Source: a virus. Taken from it: a DNA stretch of 24,479 nt. Of this stretch, positions 2,773-16,333 are shown in pieces. Below the pieces are notes generated by a model. The model worked only from the letters and a program-made list of their open reading frames with translations. It was not told where the DNA came from and did no database searches. A program made the translations under genes and the position numbers. The stretch spans positions 1-24,479 of IMG/VR virus record IMGVR_UViG_3300042465_000552; one strand, 5' to 3'. The first letter of the stretch is position 1; each line of letters opens with the position of its first letter.

Positions 2773-2956
2773 AATTGACATCGAGCCAGTGGAAAAACCA
2801 AAATCAAGAGCAAATGATTTATTGTTTACAATGATGGATGTCTTAGAAAACATCGAACACATTGACGATGCTGGCTATGTTTTAAGAATGAAAGTTATAA
2901 ACAATATCGAGTTTTTAGTCGATGTTTTAATGGAAGAATATGAAAATGGAAGATAA
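2765..2956 (+). CDS. Small unknown protein
   Basis: A 63-residue soluble, acidic, mostly helical protein (for example NDLLFTMMDVLENIEHIDDAGYVLRMKV, shown here only as a composition guide). No motif recognised. It overlaps the end of the spanin candidate by 8 bases and is itself overlapped by the phosphoesterase gene by 17 bases, so it belongs to the same transcript and is probably translated by coupling. The overlaps at both ends support it being real. Its size and position suggest an accessory to the downstream HTH-phosphoesterase, but nothing in the sequence shows that. Confidence 0.6.
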   Translation: MYKIDIEPVEKPKSRANDLLFTMMDVLENIEHIDDAGYVLRMKVINNIEFLVDVLMEEYENGR

Positions 2957-3932
2957 AATATTAAAGATTAGAGAACATTTTTACTCTACTAACATGAGTA
3001 AAACCGATTTCCATAAACAATTTTTTGAAATGTATGGGTATCAAAATTCTGAATCTTTAAGAAAGTTTATGATTAAAAAGAATATAACTTCAAAAGATAG
3101 GTCATTACAAGAAATAAATAAAATCATTCCGCCAGTAGTCGCAAACTATAATCTTGAAACACTTGACAATTTTGGAATAGAAGAAAGCATTGGCAAGGAA
3201 TATGTGTCGGCTAAACTGCCAAGTCATTTAAAAAAGATTGGAATCTTATCAGATATTCATTTTCCCTATCATGACCTTCAGGCTTTGACTTGCGCTATCA
3301 AGCATTTAAAGGAGCAAGAGATTGACTGCTTGTATTTAAATGGAGATATACAAGACTTCTATTCTATTTCCCGACACGAGAAGGAAAAGGATATGCGAGA
3401 TTTTAAGCGTGAAGTAGATATGAATAGGGATTTCTTGCAGAGGTTAAGGGATTTATTTAGAACAATTCCAATTTATTATAAACTTGGCAACCACGAAAAT
3501 CGATTTGCCAGGTCATTACAATTACAAGCTGAAGAGTTTGCTCAAATACACGACCTTCAATTCGATGTATTTTTTAGATTAGATAAATTAGGCATCACAA
3601 TGATTGAAGATTGGCAAGGAATGGAGATGGGCGATTTGTTAGTGATTCACGGGCATGAGGGTTTTGGCACTGGTGGATTAAATCCAAGCCAATCATTATT
3701 TAATAAAATGTTTTGCAATACTTTAATGGGTCACGTTCATAGGAAAACCGTTACAACAAAGAAGAATGGTTTTGGGCAATATATTAACACTTATTCAACT
3801 GGTTGTTTAACATCTTTAAATCCTAAGTATATGCCATATAATCAACATACACATGGTTTTGCAATAGTTGAAATTGATAATGGTAAATCAAAAGTTAATA
3901 ATATTCAGATAATTAACGGAAAAGTTTTGTAG
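2940..3932 (+). CDS. HTH plus calcineurin-like metallophosphoesterase
   Basis: A 330-residue protein. Residues about 1-60 look like a small helical DNA-binding-like region (FYSTNMSKTDFHKQFFEMYG, SLRKFMIKKN). Residues 98-325 form a metallophosphoesterase: SDIH (104-107), GDIQD (135-139), GNHE (183-186), HGHE (237-240) and GHVH (264-267), which together give the full two-metal ligand set, so the enzyme should be active. Substrate cannot be told; relatives act on DNA ends, nucleotides or phosphoproteins. An alternative start two codons on (ATG 2946) is equally good. It is the last gene before a strong terminator. Its position at the end of the lysis operon is odd for a DNA-metabolism enzyme. Confidence 0.85.
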   Translation: MKMEDKILKIREHFYSTNMSKTDFHKQFFEMYGYQNSESLRKFMIKKNITSKDRSLQEINKIIPPVVANYNLETLDNFGIEESIGKEYVSAKLPSHLKKIGILSDIHFPYHDLQALTCAIKHLKEQEIDCLYLNGDIQDFYSISRHEKEKDMRDFKREVDMNRDFLQRLRDLFRTIPIYYKLGNHENRFARSLQLQAEEFAQIHDLQFDVFFRLDKLGITMIEDWQGMEMGDLLVIHGHEGFGTGGLNPSQSLFNKMFCNTLMGHVHRKTVTTKKNGFGQYINTYSTGCLTSLNPKYMPYNQHTHGFAIVEIDNGKSKVNNIQIINGKVL

Positions 3933-3969
3933 GTTTGTGGTTTCATAGTTAAATAGGTTTAAGTAATAG

Positions 3970-4007
3970 AATCCCTATCGGTCATATCGGTGGGGATTTT
4001 TGTTTTA
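3970..4007 (+). terminator. Intrinsic terminator T1 after the phosphoesterase gene
   Basis: AATCCCTATCG (3970-3980) pairs with CGGTGGGGATT (3988-3998), with two G-T wobbles, around a 7-base loop GTCATAT. The hairpin runs straight into TTTTTGTTTT. This closes the transcript carrying the lysis genes. The loop plus two stem bases (CGGTCATAT, 3979-3987) is also complementary to ATATGACCG at 4007-4015, see findings. Confidence 0.8.
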
Positions 4008-4082
4008 TATGACCGTTAAATAAATAATTGGGATATTATTAAAATAAAATTATATAAAGTTTTTTTATTTAATAATTATATT

Positions 4083-6445: not shown

Positions 6446-6597
6446 AAGAACTTACATTCAACCAATGGCAAGACCATTTGAGCAAGCAATTGCAAAAGGA
6501 TTATAAAAAATTGTATCAAACCTCAAAATTTAAACCAAATGAAAACAAGTTTCAAAAAGTATCACGAAGAGAATCCGCAGATTTACATAGAGTTTAA
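6442..6597 (+). CDS. Small basic protein, 51 residues
   Basis: Begins at ATG 6442 (overlapping the previous TGA), product MKELTFNQWQDHLSKQLQKD then a Lys-rich region. An upstream in-frame ATG at 6409 would add 11 residues but lies inside the previous gene and is less likely. The last 59 bases overlap the next gene in another frame, so one of the two C- or N-terminal ends may be shorter than drawn. The first 30 residues look convincingly coding; the rest is uncertain. Function unknown. Confidence 0.4.
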   Translation: MKELTFNQWQDHLSKQLQKDYKKLYQTSKFKPNENKFQKVSRRESADLHRV

Positions 6598-6805
6598 GCG
6601 ATTGGCATATCAGCTAATCAATCGAGGGTATGTAAGGCTTGGAGCAAAACAAATCTTTGAAGTCATTAGATGGCACACAATGGTCGAAGGAAATGACGGC
6701 TACAAGGTCAACAATAATTATACTTCTGACTATGCCAGGTTATTTGAATCAGACCATCCGATTTATGCTGGATATTTTCTAAAAAGACTTTGTAAATCGG
6801 TTTAG
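6539..6805 (+). CDS. Small phage protein, last gene of the early operon
   Basis: An 88-residue protein with a basic N-terminus and the sequence NPQIYIEFKRLAYQLINRGY, then LGAKQIFEVIRWHTMVEG and NNNYTSDYARLF. I recall similar proteins in Bacteroidota phages, near replication genes, with no assigned function; the layout (Arg/Lys, conserved RWHT) hints at nucleic-acid contact. It is followed at once by the promoter of the structured RNA at 6789-6819, whose -33 element lies inside this gene's end. No terminator separates them. Confidence 0.65.
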   Translation: MKTSFKKYHEENPQIYIEFKRLAYQLINRGYVRLGAKQIFEVIRWHTMVEGNDGYKVNNNYTSDYARLFESDHPIYAGYFLKRLCKSV

Positions 6806-6819
6806 TTTTTTTATATTTG
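6789..6819 (+). promoter_or_regulatory. Consensus Bacteroidota promoter for the structured RNA
   Basis: TTTG at 6789-6792 and TATATTTG at 6812-6819 are separated by 19 bases, matching the Bacteroidota consensus (TTTG, 19-21 bases, TAnnTTTG) at both elements. It is the best promoter match in the window. Transcription should start near 6823-6826. The -33 element overlaps the last codons of the preceding gene. What follows immediately is not a coding region but three hairpins and a terminator, so the promoter drives a short RNA, a leader for the gene at 6924, or both. Confidence 0.8.
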
Positions 6820-6821
6820 AA

Positions 6822-6917
6822 TCAATAAGCCAAGAGGGTAGGAGTTCTTGGGTTATTTAATGGTTTAAAAAACCGAAGCCAGTTTTGCACTCCTACGCAG
6901 ACTGGCTTTTTTATTTT
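6822..6917 (+). ncRNA. Candidate kissing-loop small RNA or attenuator leader
   Basis: About 95 nt between a consensus promoter and a U-tract. Hairpin 1: CCAAGA (6830-6835) pairs with TCTTGG (6846-6851), loop GGGTAGGAGT. Hairpin 2: GGTTT (6862-6866) pairs with AAACC (6870-6874), loop AAA. Hairpin 3: AAGCCAGT (6876-6883) pairs with ACTGGCTT (6901-6908), then an upper stem TGC/GCA (6886-6888 with 6897-6899) whose loop is exactly ACTCCTAC (6889-6896). That 8-base loop is the perfect complement of GTAGGAGT (6838-6845) in the loop of hairpin 1, so the two loops can kiss, within or between molecules. No convincing ORF lies in the transcript. It may be a free small RNA or a regulator of read-through into the initiator-like gene. 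I do not recognise a known RNA family. Confidence 0.7.
6876..6917 (+). terminator. Intrinsic terminator T3 (third hairpin of the structured RNA)
   Basis: A perfect 8-bp stem AAGCCAGT/ACTGGCTT with an upper TGC/GCA stem, followed by TTTTTTATTTTT (6907-6918). It ends 7 bases before the ATG at 6924, so transcription from the 6812 promoter would stop before that gene unless the hairpin is overridden. Its loop is the pairing partner of hairpin 1. Confidence 0.8.
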
Positions 6918-6923
6918 TAAAAA

Positions 6924-7580
6924 ATGAAATATTACTTACACGATTCCAATTCATTTAATGATGAAAAGATAACTGAGTTATATCTTGAATTTGGATACGA
7001 AGGTCTTGGGTTATTTTATACTATTTTAGAAAAACTTGCTTTACAAGAAAAGCCAATTAAGACAAAAGTTCTTAAACATCAGTTAAATGTTGGCAAAAAA
7101 TTAGATAAAGTTTGGGAGTTTATTGAGCAAATTGATTTGATTTCTACAAATAATGGAGAAACTTTTAACAAACAATTGCTAAACTTTAGCAAAAAGTATC
7201 AAGTTTCAAAAGAAAAAAATGCAAAACGAATTTTAGAATGGCGTGAAAATCAATCAGTTAGCGAAAATGTAACACGTTCAGAACTTGTTCGTAACGCTGA
7301 TAAAGTAAAAGAAAGTAAAGTAAAGGAAAGTAAAGTAAAGTTAATAGATATAATAACTCCTCACATTTTTCTTTTAGGAGATGAATACGATAATTTTTAT
7401 GCTTACTGGACTGAACAAAATAAATCAGGAAAGGAAAGATGGGAGTTAGAAAAATTCTTTAATATTGAAAGAAGAATAAATACTTGGATAAATAATAAAA
7501 CCAAATTTAACAACAATGGAAATACAACTGAGAAACTTGGAACAAGTGCCGCAAGAATGGAAGCACTTAGGAAGTGGTAA
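6924..7580 (+). CDS. Lin1244/Lin1753-like (DUF4373) replication initiator-like protein
   Basis: A 218-residue protein. The N-terminal 90 residues match the Lin1244/Lin1753-like domain (DUF4373): HDSNSFNDEKITELYLEFGY, EGLGLFYTILEKLA, then a winged-helix-like stretch ending NKQLLNFSKKYQVSKEKNAK. A Lys/Glu/Ser repeat (KVKESKVKESKVK, about 128-140) links it to a C-terminal helical domain (ERWELEKFFNIERRINTWINN). Such proteins take the place of DnaD/replication-initiation proteins in many phages, so a role in starting replication or loading the helicase is likely but not proven. The gene starts 7 bases after terminator T3, so its expression depends on read-through from upstream or on an unseen promoter. 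It overlaps the next gene by 65 bases. Confidence 0.8.
   Translation: MKYYLHDSNSFNDEKITELYLEFGYEGLGLFYTILEKLALQEKPIKTKVLKHQLNVGKKLDKVWEFIEQIDLISTNNGETFNKQLLNFSKKYQVSKEKNAKRILEWRENQSVSENVTRSELVRNADKVKESKVKESKVKLIDIITPHIFLLGDEYDNFYAYWTEQNKSGKERWELEKFFNIERRINTWINNKTKFNNNGNTTEKLGTSAARMEALRKW
7305..7340 (+). repeat. 15-bp tandem repeat inside the initiator-like gene
   Basis: GTAAAAGAAAGTAAA (7305-7319) and GTAAAGGAAAGTAAA (7320-7334) followed by a partial copy to 7340, 2.4 copies with one mismatch. It encodes the KVKES repeats that form the linker of the protein. Being a multiple of three, copy-number change keeps the frame. Similar Lys/Glu/Ser linkers are common in DUF4373 proteins. Confidence 0.85.
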
Positions 7581-10113: not shown

Positions 10114-10626
10114 ATGACCAGGTCGCAAATCATTGAGGAACTTTATAATTCAAAGGAGATTAAGCAAGCCTTGATGAAAATGCACCCAGCAAATTTAAGG
10201 GAAGAACTTAAGCAAGAAATGTTCGTTAATCTTTGCTCAATAACCGAAGACAAATTTTGGTCTATATACAATAACAACGGAAGCAACGGATTAAAGTTTT
10301 GGCTTGTTAGATGTATGCTTAATATGATTTATAGTACTGGAATGAATCAACCATTCTTTAGGCATTTCAGAGCCAAGTACGAATCAATTGATGGGTTAGA
10401 AGAGTTAGTGCATATTGAGGATGAATCAAAGGATTACAAAGAAAAGCTATTTAATCGAGTGGAGGTAGCAAGAAAAGAGTTATCATGGTACGAAGATATG
10501 CTACTCGATACTTATGTCGAATTGAATTTTAATCAAACGGAGATTTCGAGAAAGACTGGCATTCCGTATATGTCCATAGTCAAAACGATTTCAAACATTA
10601 AAAAGAAAATAAGGGATGAAGCCTGA
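10114..10626 (+). CDS. Sigma-70-like transcription factor
   Basis: A 170-residue protein with the plan of a small sigma-like factor: an N-terminal helical region with FWSIYNNNGSNGLKFWLVRCMLN (a sigma region-2-like block), a linker with SIDGLEELVHIEDES, and a clear C-terminal helix-turn-helix at about 139-166 (FNQTEISRKTGIPYMSIVKT then ISNIKKKIR), the region-4-like part that reads promoter DNA. Phage-coded factors of this kind switch host RNA polymerase to middle or late promoters. It is the first gene after terminator T2, upstream of the packaging and structural genes, which fits such a switch. The region-2 assignment is less sure than the HTH. Confidence 0.75.
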   Translation: MTRSQIIEELYNSKEIKQALMKMHPANLREELKQEMFVNLCSITEDKFWSIYNNNGSNGLKFWLVRCMLNMIYSTGMNQPFFRHFRAKYESIDGLEELVHIEDESKDYKEKLFNRVEVARKELSWYEDMLLDTYVELNFNQTEISRKTGIPYMSIVKTISNIKKKIRDEA

Positions 10627-14845: not shown

Positions 14846-15234
14846 TAAGTTTTAAGAAAGGTCAATCAGGCAATCCAAATGGGCGACCAAAGAAATATGT
14901 TACGTTGTTAAAAGAATCAGGTTATAATATGACCGAGATTGGAATAACAATTCGTAAAATGCTTGCTATGAATATTGACCAACTTAAAGAGATATTCGAT
15001 AATCCCGAAAGTTCAATATTAGAAAAGACAATTGCTGGAGCAATGAATAAATCTTTAAAGAATGGCTCTTTGTATTCAATAGAAACTTTATTAAGTCGAG
15101 TATTTGGAAAGCCAAAAGAATCGGCTGACATAAAACAAGATACTGAAATAACCATAAAATTTGCCAATGGAGATTATCCTACCGACTCCACACGAGGCGC
15201 AGAAAAAAGTATTACAGAGCAAGGCGAGGTTTAG
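14824..15234 (+). CDS. terS: Terminase small subunit-like protein (DUF5681-like)
   Basis: A 136-residue protein. The N-terminus carries FKKGQSGNPNGRPKK (10-24), the DUF5681 signature, a basic DNA-binding-like entry segment found on small terminase-like proteins. The middle is helical (IGITIRKMLAMNIDQLKEIF, LEKTIAGAMNKSLKNGSLYS), and the end is polar (KQDTEITIKFANGDYPTDST). Small terminases bind pac/cos DNA and hand it to the large subunit. The call rests on the signature and the place directly ahead of the large subunit, which it overlaps by 68 bases. It also overlaps the end of the methyltransferase gene. Confidence 0.8.
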   Translation: MANEQNLVSFKKGQSGNPNGRPKKYVTLLKESGYNMTEIGITIRKMLAMNIDQLKEIFDNPESSILEKTIAGAMNKSLKNGSLYSIETLLSRVFGKPKESADIKQDTEITIKFANGDYPTDSTRGAEKSITEQGEV

Positions 15235-16333
15235 AGTGCTTATGTGCGGGCGAAGATTTGGCAAGTCATTGATTAGCCAGGTCATCACTTGCGTGGAGGC
15301 ATTACAAGGTAAGTCAGTTGCTTATATTACTCCGACCTACAAATTAGCCAAAGTCTTTTTTGATGATATTGCTTTAATACTTCCTCCTGAAGTAGCAACT
15401 TCTAACATATCAGATTTAACTTTTAAATTGGCTACGGGTGGAGTCATTCGATTTTATACGGGCGAAAGATTAGACAATCTTCGAGGTATGCGATTCCATT
15501 ATGTTATTATCGATGAGGCTTCATATATTCCCGATTTAGAGAACGGTTGGAATAATGCTATAAGACCTACCTTAACCGATTATAAAGGCAAGGCGCTATT
15601 TCTATCGACTCCGAGAGGCAAGAATTATTTCTATTCTTTATATTTAAAAGGATTAGAAGCAAACGGAGAATGGGAATCGTTTAAATATTCGACTTACGAT
15701 AATCCTTATATTGCAAATTCTGAAGTCGATTCAATTAAGCAATCAGCAATTCCCGTAGTATTCGAACAAGAGTACATGGCTAACCCAGCTGAGAACGCTG
15801 CGAATCCATTTGGAAGTGAGGCAATTCGTAAGTGTACATCGGACATTTCTACCAATATTGTTAAATGTTACGGAGTCGATTTGGCAAAGTACTCAGATTG
15901 GACTGTAATTATCGGTTTAGATAATAGTGGCAATGTAGCTTATTATGACCGATTTCAGAAAGATTGGGCAAGCACTCAGAACATAATCCGCAATTTACCA
16001 AAAGCACCGATGTTAATTGATAGCACTGGAGTAGGCGACCCGATAGTAGAGCAATTACAACGGGAAGGCATGGACATAGAAGGATTTAAATTTACAAGCC
16101 AAAGCAAGCAAGAATTAATGTTAGGTCTTCAAGTTGCAATCCATCAGGAACGAGTACACTATCCTGAAGGTATGATTAAAAATGAGTTAGAGGTTTTTGA
16201 GTACCAATATACATCTCACGGAGTTAAGTATTCAGCACCTACGGGATTTACGGATGACTGCGTATGCGCATTAGCATTAGCGTGGCGCAAGTTTGATTTT
16301 AAGTCAGGAACGGGCAGATACAACTTTGTTTAA
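15167..16333 (+). CDS. terL: Terminase large subunit
   Basis: A 388-residue packaging motor/nuclease. Walker A is GRRFGKS (28-34), Walker B VIIDEA (113-118), and the coupling motif STPRG (147-151). The C-terminal nuclease has its RuvC-like acidic residues in CYGVDLAKYSDWTV (Asp238), LIDSTGVGD (Asp285) and FTDDCVCALALAW (Asp363/Asp364). Both halves are intact, so the protein should be functional. It is somewhat shorter than many TerL proteins (about 450-500) but is complete. The start is ATG 15167; the two residues before it come from a TTG at 15161. Its start lies inside the small subunit gene, which gives coupled translation. Confidence 0.95.
   Translation: MEIILPTPHEAQKKVLQSKARFRVLMCGRRFGKSLISQVITCVEALQGKSVAYITPTYKLAKVFFDDIALILPPEVATSNISDLTFKLATGGVIRFYTGERLDNLRGMRFHYVIIDEASYIPDLENGWNNAIRPTLTDYKGKALFLSTPRGKNYFYSLYLKGLEANGEWESFKYSTYDNPYIANSEVDSIKQSAIPVVFEQEYMANPAENAANPFGSEAIRKCTSDISTNIVKCYGVDLAKYSDWTVIIGLDNSGNVAYYDRFQKDWASTQNIIRNLPKAPMLIDSTGVGDPIVEQLQREGMDIEGFKFTSQSKQELMLGLQVAIHQERVHYPEGMIKNELEVFEYQYTSHGVKYSAPTGFTDDCVCALALAWRKFDFKSGTGRYNFV

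Follow-up and report, generated by a model that had tools for sequence, protein, structure and literature searches.

In a viral genome fragment of 24,479 nucleotides (IMG/VR record IMGVR_UViG_3300042465_000552, positions 1–24,479, hereafter the window), three consecutive hairpins are located between a Bacteroidota-type promoter and a gene resembling replication initiators, and the loop of the first hairpin is complementary to the loop of the third. The question raised by this locus is whether the two loops are really paired in an RNA and which role such an RNA could play ahead of the gene.

Architecture of the RNA element

The promoter, the three hairpins with intact stems, the U-tract and the 8-base complementarity between loops 1 and 3 were all found where the original prediction had placed them (Table 1), while the lower stem of hairpin 1 was absent from it. 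The promoter box and the U-tract are both read on the + strand; the spacing from TTTG to the -7 box is 19 nt, and TTTG falls in the 3'-terminal part of the upstream 88-aa gene. Loop 1 is composed of GG and GTAGGAGT, and all 8 nt of loop 3 are complementary to it. The whole element, from hairpin 1 through the U-tract (6824–6918), has a minimum free energy of -32.7 kcal/mol (z = -3.98), and none of 200 shuffled sequences folded equally well.

Table 1. Positions of the leader elements and neighbouring genes in the window
Feature	Positions	Strand	Basis
Upstream 88-aa gene, end of the preceding co-oriented block	6539–6805	+	phrog_13625
-33-like element TTTG	6789–6792	+	read in sequence; may partly reflect coding sequence
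-7 box TATATTTG, Bacteroidota-type promoter	6812–6819	+	read in sequence
Hairpin 1 (lower stem AATAA 6824–6828 / TTATT 6853–6857, across a G-G mismatch; upper stem CCAAGA 6830–6835 / TCTTGG 6846–6851)	6824–6857	+	fold and covariation
Loop 1 GUAGGAGU, 5' partner of the kissing helix	6838–6845	+	covaries with 6889–6896
Hairpin 2, small linker hairpin GGUUU/AAACC (GGTTT 6862–6866 / AAACC 6870–6874)	6862–6874	+	fold
Hairpin 3, terminator hairpin (terminator stem AAGCCAGT 6876–6883 / ACTGGCTT 6901–6908; apical stem TGC 6886–6888 / GCA 6897–6899, closing the 8-nt loop)	6876–6908	+	fold and apical covariation
Loop 3 ACUCCUAC (DNA ACTCCTAC), 3' partner of the kissing helix	6889–6896	+	exact complement of loop 1
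Terminator U-tract TTTTTTATTTTT	6907–6918	+	read in sequence
First operon gene, replication-initiator-like, Lin1244_N N-terminal domain	6924–7580	+	Pfam, PHROG

Such nested complementarity had been judged hard to explain by chance. A class-agnostic detector of the pattern (complementary loops of at least 7 nt in two hairpins and a T-run) gave 27 matches when both strands of 1.7 Mb of block-shuffled DNA were scanned, that is about 0.4 per window, so that the single sequence is only suggestive and it is the covariation described below that is decisive. Since one window proves little, homologues were fetched by their genes and not by their loops. Another loop match lies at the terminator following the gene at 2940–3932 (3930–4050), where the loop CGGTCATAT could form a 9-nt pairing with ATATGACCG, which follows shortly after the T-run; this site, the second-best + strand match of the class A model (22 bits), is within chance for one sequence.

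No Rfam 15 family reached the gathering threshold in the window, in line with the original statement that no known family is recognised, nor in 13 loci mostly belonging to other classes, and none of the guanidine families matched the window even at E <= 5. The best sub-threshold match, bglG-cis-reg (29.4 bits vs a cut-off of 80), was rejected as a chance fit to the terminator. In the open-access literature, supplementary lists of large RNA surveys excepted, no paper describing this set of kissing-loop leaders was found. The DNA sequence of loop 3 is one that we take to be identical to a universal 16S segment (338F primer); mimicry of 16S rRNA was rejected and the match is regarded as a coincidence, because other lineages carry quite different loops at the same place.

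Covariation and classes of kissing leaders

Homologues were retrieved through the downstream gene and the upstream 88-aa gene (phrog_13625, of unknown function, with 80 viral homologues), the latter serving as syntenic anchor, and the loops were ignored. The intergenic loops change together, as in the pairs GUAGGAGU/ACUCCUAC, GUCGGAGU/ACUCCGAC, GUGAGAG/CUCUCAC, GUGGUAG/CUACCAC, GUCAGAGU/ACUCUGAC and GUCGUAG/CUACGAC. When classes A and F (leaders of the type GUNNNAG...CUNNNAC) are pooled, the middle triplet is complementary in all 43 non-redundant loop-blind cases, which include six loop types (GUAGGAG, GUCGGAG, GUGAGAG, GUGGUAG, GUCGCAG, GUCAGAG), each with its exact complement; with permuted partners the mean is 14.3 and the maximum 23. 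This comparison of related phages had been set beforehand, and in it each loop follows the changes of its partner.

In an alignment of 25 loop-blind class A sequences made with MAFFT (A2), the kissing helix shows compensatory changes at its three middle pairs (26 cells) with one unpaired cell, which we put down to a single sequence (L026) whose loop was misplaced by three columns by MAFFT; the flanking pairs are near-invariant, the outermost pair alone is optional, and the signal is lost when the 3' partners are slid by 1–3 columns. The hairpin 1 stem has compensatory changes at 7 of 11 pairs, with 97.8% of cells paired, and the apical pairs of hairpin 3 covary in all three positions. A second alignment (A1) gives the same covariation and is only supportive, because it was partly selected by loop sequence. 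Faster evolution of the loop than of the stem, which would be a sign of diversifying selection, is not seen, the hairpin 1 stem having equally many compensated cells. The preservation of pairing while the letters change indicates a real RNA element, and the maintained complementarity of the two loops indicates a loop-loop (kissing) helix under selection; on this comparative evidence, which demonstrates the kissing helix and the two hairpins, the element is a real and apparently undescribed RNA.

The kissing leader, as judged from the sequences compared, is one architecture occurring in several unrelated sequence classes and not a single family. In class B, an RNA unrelated to that of class A but built on the same plan is located downstream of the same 88-aa gene; its hairpin 1 loop CUCACUAC pairs with the hairpin 3 loop GUAGUGAG, the variants CUCUCGAC, GUUCUCAC, CUUCUCAC and CUCCUUAC (L364) are all compensated, and 8 of 8 pairs are formed in 17 of 17 aligned sequences with two-sided changes at five pairs. 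Three further loop-blind scans, starting from other initiator families, covered 231 upstream regions, of which 104 are non-redundant. Hairpins whose loops can kiss over at least 7 bp occur in 63 of these 104 vs 34 of 520 shuffles (6.5%); a few of the 63 are chance matches, as in the shuffles. Class F, comprising the leaders of initiators that are presumably DUF6291-like, has the loops AGGUGAGAG, AGGUAGGAG, GGUGGUAG, GUCGGAG, GUCGCAG and GUGGAAG. Class C has the loop AUGGUAC, in which variation was not seen, and class D (L042 and L070, upstream of position 2001) has two 7-nt loops that are wholly complementary (GUCGCAU, GUCGUAU and GUCGGAU, each with its complement); rarer loop forms are GUUGUGAG, GUCGAGAU and GAUAGUAGC. 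An element like hairpin 2 is found again in classes A and F and not in B, C and D.

Class E consists of two leaders (L450 and L451) situated about 20–130 nt before the gene start (position 1201), in which the terminator loop (GUGUGUU or GUGCUG) has two possible partners, namely loop 1 and a second copy of loop 1 located in a hairpin directly before the ATG (CCUAA-AACACAC-UUAGG or CUAA-ACAGCAC-UUAG). Both copies (AACACAC, ACAGCAC) change together, and these two sequences hint at partner switching.

A scan of contigs gave six initiator homologues, one of which (from a Hymenobacter MAG, L286) has a weak loop match of 5–6 nt. A contig assigned to a Deltaproteobacteria MAG (L284) encodes an initiator 77% identical and is more likely a mis-binned Bacteroidota phage contig. 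Two contigs of about twice the usual ~30 kb, 3300043436_001856 (63.2 kb; L047 and L062) and 3300027969_000114 (59.3 kb; L054 and L180), carry two leader-plus-initiator modules each and could be joined genomes, tandem prophages or assembly chimeras.

Genomic setting

The product of the gene downstream matches Pfam PF14297 (Lin1244_N; 26.3 bits vs a cut-off of 25) and, weakly, PHROG 2562 'replication initiation protein' (E 6e-5), in agreement with its earlier description as initiator-like. Among 90 distinct leaders, a -7-like box is present upstream of the RNA in 87, and 6–9 T occur within 9 nt after hairpin 3 in 89. The ATG follows the first T-run by 0–23 nt (median 8.5, n = 90), so that there is no room for a second promoter and the downstream genes would need read-through. 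A possible second promoter close to the ATG, formed by TATTTTTA within the U-tract, was rejected for lack of conservation as a -7 box. In five loci (L024, L032, L034, L037, L063) HNH-type or other small genes are inserted exactly between leader and initiator, and the leader, itself intact, has kept its place behind the promoter and now precedes the new first gene. The first downstream gene varies and is mostly replication-initiator-like, and unrelated RNAs of the same plan replace one another at the one site after the 88-aa gene. The spacing between T-run and ATG, the promoter box, the insertions and the initiator-like first gene point to a replication-operon leader with a terminator that needs read-through.

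Elsewhere in the window, the ORF at 1186–1932 has, judged by eye, a GIY-YIG/NUMOD-like look (homing endonuclease). The gene at 10114–10626 encodes a sigma-factor-like protein (phrog_1740, E 1.8e-5), a possible means for the phage of redirecting transcription later on.

Possible function of the leader

The reading to which we give reasonable credence is that the RNA heads the phage replication operon as its 5' leader and acts in cis as a kissing-loop attenuator; the element would thus probably decide, as far as its sequence and position can tell, whether the replication genes are transcribed. Intrinsic termination at hairpin 3, with expression via read-through, is strongly implied, and the regulatory step and its signal are what we infer. 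Among the three roles originally proposed, the attenuator is the best supported, because the RNA lies between promoter and start codon and keeps with the promoter despite insertions; a small RNA and a self-associating RNA are less supported. On the other hand, a stable free-standing small RNA would give the same covariation.

As in transcription attenuator leaders in general, the terminator is located between the promoter and the first start codon with no second promoter between them. In lambda, the short leader made from pR' (6S RNA) ends at a terminator soon after its phage promoter, and the operon behind it is expressed only by antitermination, which is controlled by the Q protein and involves no loop-loop pairing; the present leader is alike in being short, presumably terminated and placed before a phage operon, and differs by its loop-loop pairing. 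The put RNA of HK022 is a phage-encoded antiterminator, a promoter-proximal leader of two hairpins that acts on read-through, and as far as is known it includes neither a terminator nor kissing loops. The likeness is one of description, both being promoter-proximal phage leaders; unlike put, the present RNA ends in a U-tract.

Guanidine-IV consists of two kissing hairpins, of which the 3' one is an intrinsic terminator, and it has been proposed that the kissed, extended pair stretches the linker and the outer terminator pairs cannot close (PMC7736828, PMC11611296, PMC9788692). Guanidine-IV (mepA / GGAM-1), with its Gd4v variant, and the phage leader share a loop-loop pseudoknot of two hairpins, the 3' one being the terminator, and a start codon shortly after; in the phage leader the two-hairpin pairing with a 3' terminator is found in the predicted fold and in the covariation. 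In contrast to guanidine-IV, the phage leader gives no Rfam match with the guanidine-IV covariance model, its kissing helix of 7–9 bp varies freely in the middle, its classes share no ligand-pocket consensus, the downstream genes are phage replication genes and not guanidine exporters, and the carriers are Bacteroidota phages. A terminator leader controlled by tertiary pairing is of a known kind, and this set of leaders is absent from Rfam 15.

In the attenuator reading, a transcript starting from the promoter at 6812 would form hairpin 1 and then the terminator hairpin; hairpin 3 and the U-tract would end an RNA of ~95 nt, and the operon from 6924 would be expressed by read-through only. By analogy with guanidine-IV, loop 1 would catch loop 3 as it emerges, and the rigid pair of kissed hairpins would strain the short linker, with kissing and full closure of the terminator stem in competition. 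This balance would set the amount of polymerase entering the replication genes and could be shifted by RNA copy number, a protein, polymerase speed or a small molecule; the kiss, with a duplex energy of -7 to -12.4 kcal/mol, would be able to form without a ligand, so that a separate switch signal would be needed. A rough geometric estimate (2.8 A per stacked layer and about 6 A per linker nucleotide) suggests for classes A and F that a single straight molecule has no room for the kiss together with fully formed hairpins 1, 2 and 3; something would therefore have to open, which fits an attenuator with competing states or an intermolecular pairing.

Pairing between molecules is the basis of an alternative that appears rather unlikely, in which the terminated ~95-nt RNA builds up as phage copies multiply and pairs through its loops with the nascent leaders of other copies, raising or lowering termination in copy-number or superinfection control. 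In pT181 and ColE1, kissing hairpins with 7–8-nt loops are found near a replication function, with attenuation in pT181. The phage leader is alike in its kissing hairpins, its loop size and its neighbouring replication gene and, on the attenuator reading, would resemble pT181 in attenuation too, but the partner in pT181 and ColE1 is an opposite-strand antisense RNA, while the two loops seen here belong to one sense RNA. Self-recognition in trans is consistent with the compact promoter-to-terminator unit, with the division of the loop types into discrete groups whose ends are fixed and whose middles vary, as specificity groups would, with the two fully paired 7-nt loops of class D, a geometry known from ColE1 RNA I/II, with the second covarying partner of the class E terminator loop just before the ATG, and with the linker of classes A and F, which, containing hairpin 2, is short for an unstrained intramolecular kiss on a rough A-form estimate. 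However, pairing within one molecule, where the effective concentration is high, is a simpler reading, the kiss changes no faster than the hairpin 1 stem, and phages sharing a loop type are found together in one contig or one sample (as L054 and L180, from one contig), so that orthogonality is not evident. A fuller version, in which a single sense RNA carrying both kissing halves senses its own abundance, switches the replication operon and excludes phages of the same loop type, the loop types diversifying like plasmid incompatibility groups, is slightly more doubtful again. Titration of the loops by the released short RNA is an attractive possibility, and pairing that also works in trans would, if true, represent a novel form of copy-number or immunity control in phages.

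The comparison with phi29 pRNA, also part of the original prediction, found no support beyond the complementary loops. The pRNA of phi29-like phages is a packaging RNA of about 174 nt that acts with the gp16 ATPase and whose complementary loops are able to pair between molecules; the present RNA is instead a leader with a terminator at a replication operon and without Rfam match, and the phage has a large-terminase gene (15161–16333) related to those of other tailed phages.

It is distinctly unlikely that the RNA is a stand-alone phage small RNA (a regulator, a sponge or a protein-binding RNA) stabilised by the intramolecular kiss, with an incidental position at the operon head and downstream genes read by transcription from upstream. 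Its own promoter and terminator, stable fold and compactness would suit this role, but it always stands directly before a co-oriented gene start even when the gene differs, transcription from upstream would also meet the terminator, and no extended trans target of the loop is found in the window, where near-matches are at chance level (12 vs 8.5 +/- 2.9 expected). A new riboswitch superfamily, in which a small molecule or ion would stabilise the kiss and permit read-through as guanidine does in guanidine-IV, is highly improbable: the architecture is the same and unpaired bases beside the kiss are conserved within classes (GG in class A loop 1; ACATTATAG and GAAG in class B), but the conserved bases differ between classes occupying the same site and the kiss is long enough to do without a ligand. 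Finally, an ordinary intrinsic terminator between operons with a chance loop match has almost no probability, since a single 8-bp match of neighbouring loops is not astronomically rare but the compensated loop changes in many lineages and unrelated classes refute it.

As an attenuator, the leader would be a widespread regulatory RNA of Bacteroidota phages, with one architecture in several unrelated classes, placed to control entry into phage DNA replication. The dozens of matched kissing-loop pairs on a terminator would form a natural series by which the control of intrinsic termination by kissing loops, with or without a ligand, becomes directly testable, and tests are possible now because cultivated Flavobacterium, Olleya and Cellulophaga phages carry the leader.

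In isolated phages, direct blastn gave only chance pieces and a gene-guided look-up, with hairpins checked by eye and not by covariation, was more successful. No kissing leader was found in the stretch before the gene in Riemerella PJA1, Leeuwenhoekiella Arctus_1 and Porphyromonas phages, nor was one seen in Polaribacter Freya/Danklef, as judged solely from the annotation, which shows no gap to match. In the isolates that have the leader before their replication gene block, the pair UGAGAGC::GCUCUCA is present in Flavobacterium phages elemoA/B/D, GUGAGACG::CGUCUCAC in Flavobacterium phages tooticki, sniff, lillamy, hemulen and hattifnatt, CGGGCAGG::CCUGCCCG in Flavobacterium phage 11b, GUGGUGG::CCACCAC in Olleya phage Harreka_1 and CUCUCACAA::UUGUGAGAG in Cellulophaga phage phi19:3.
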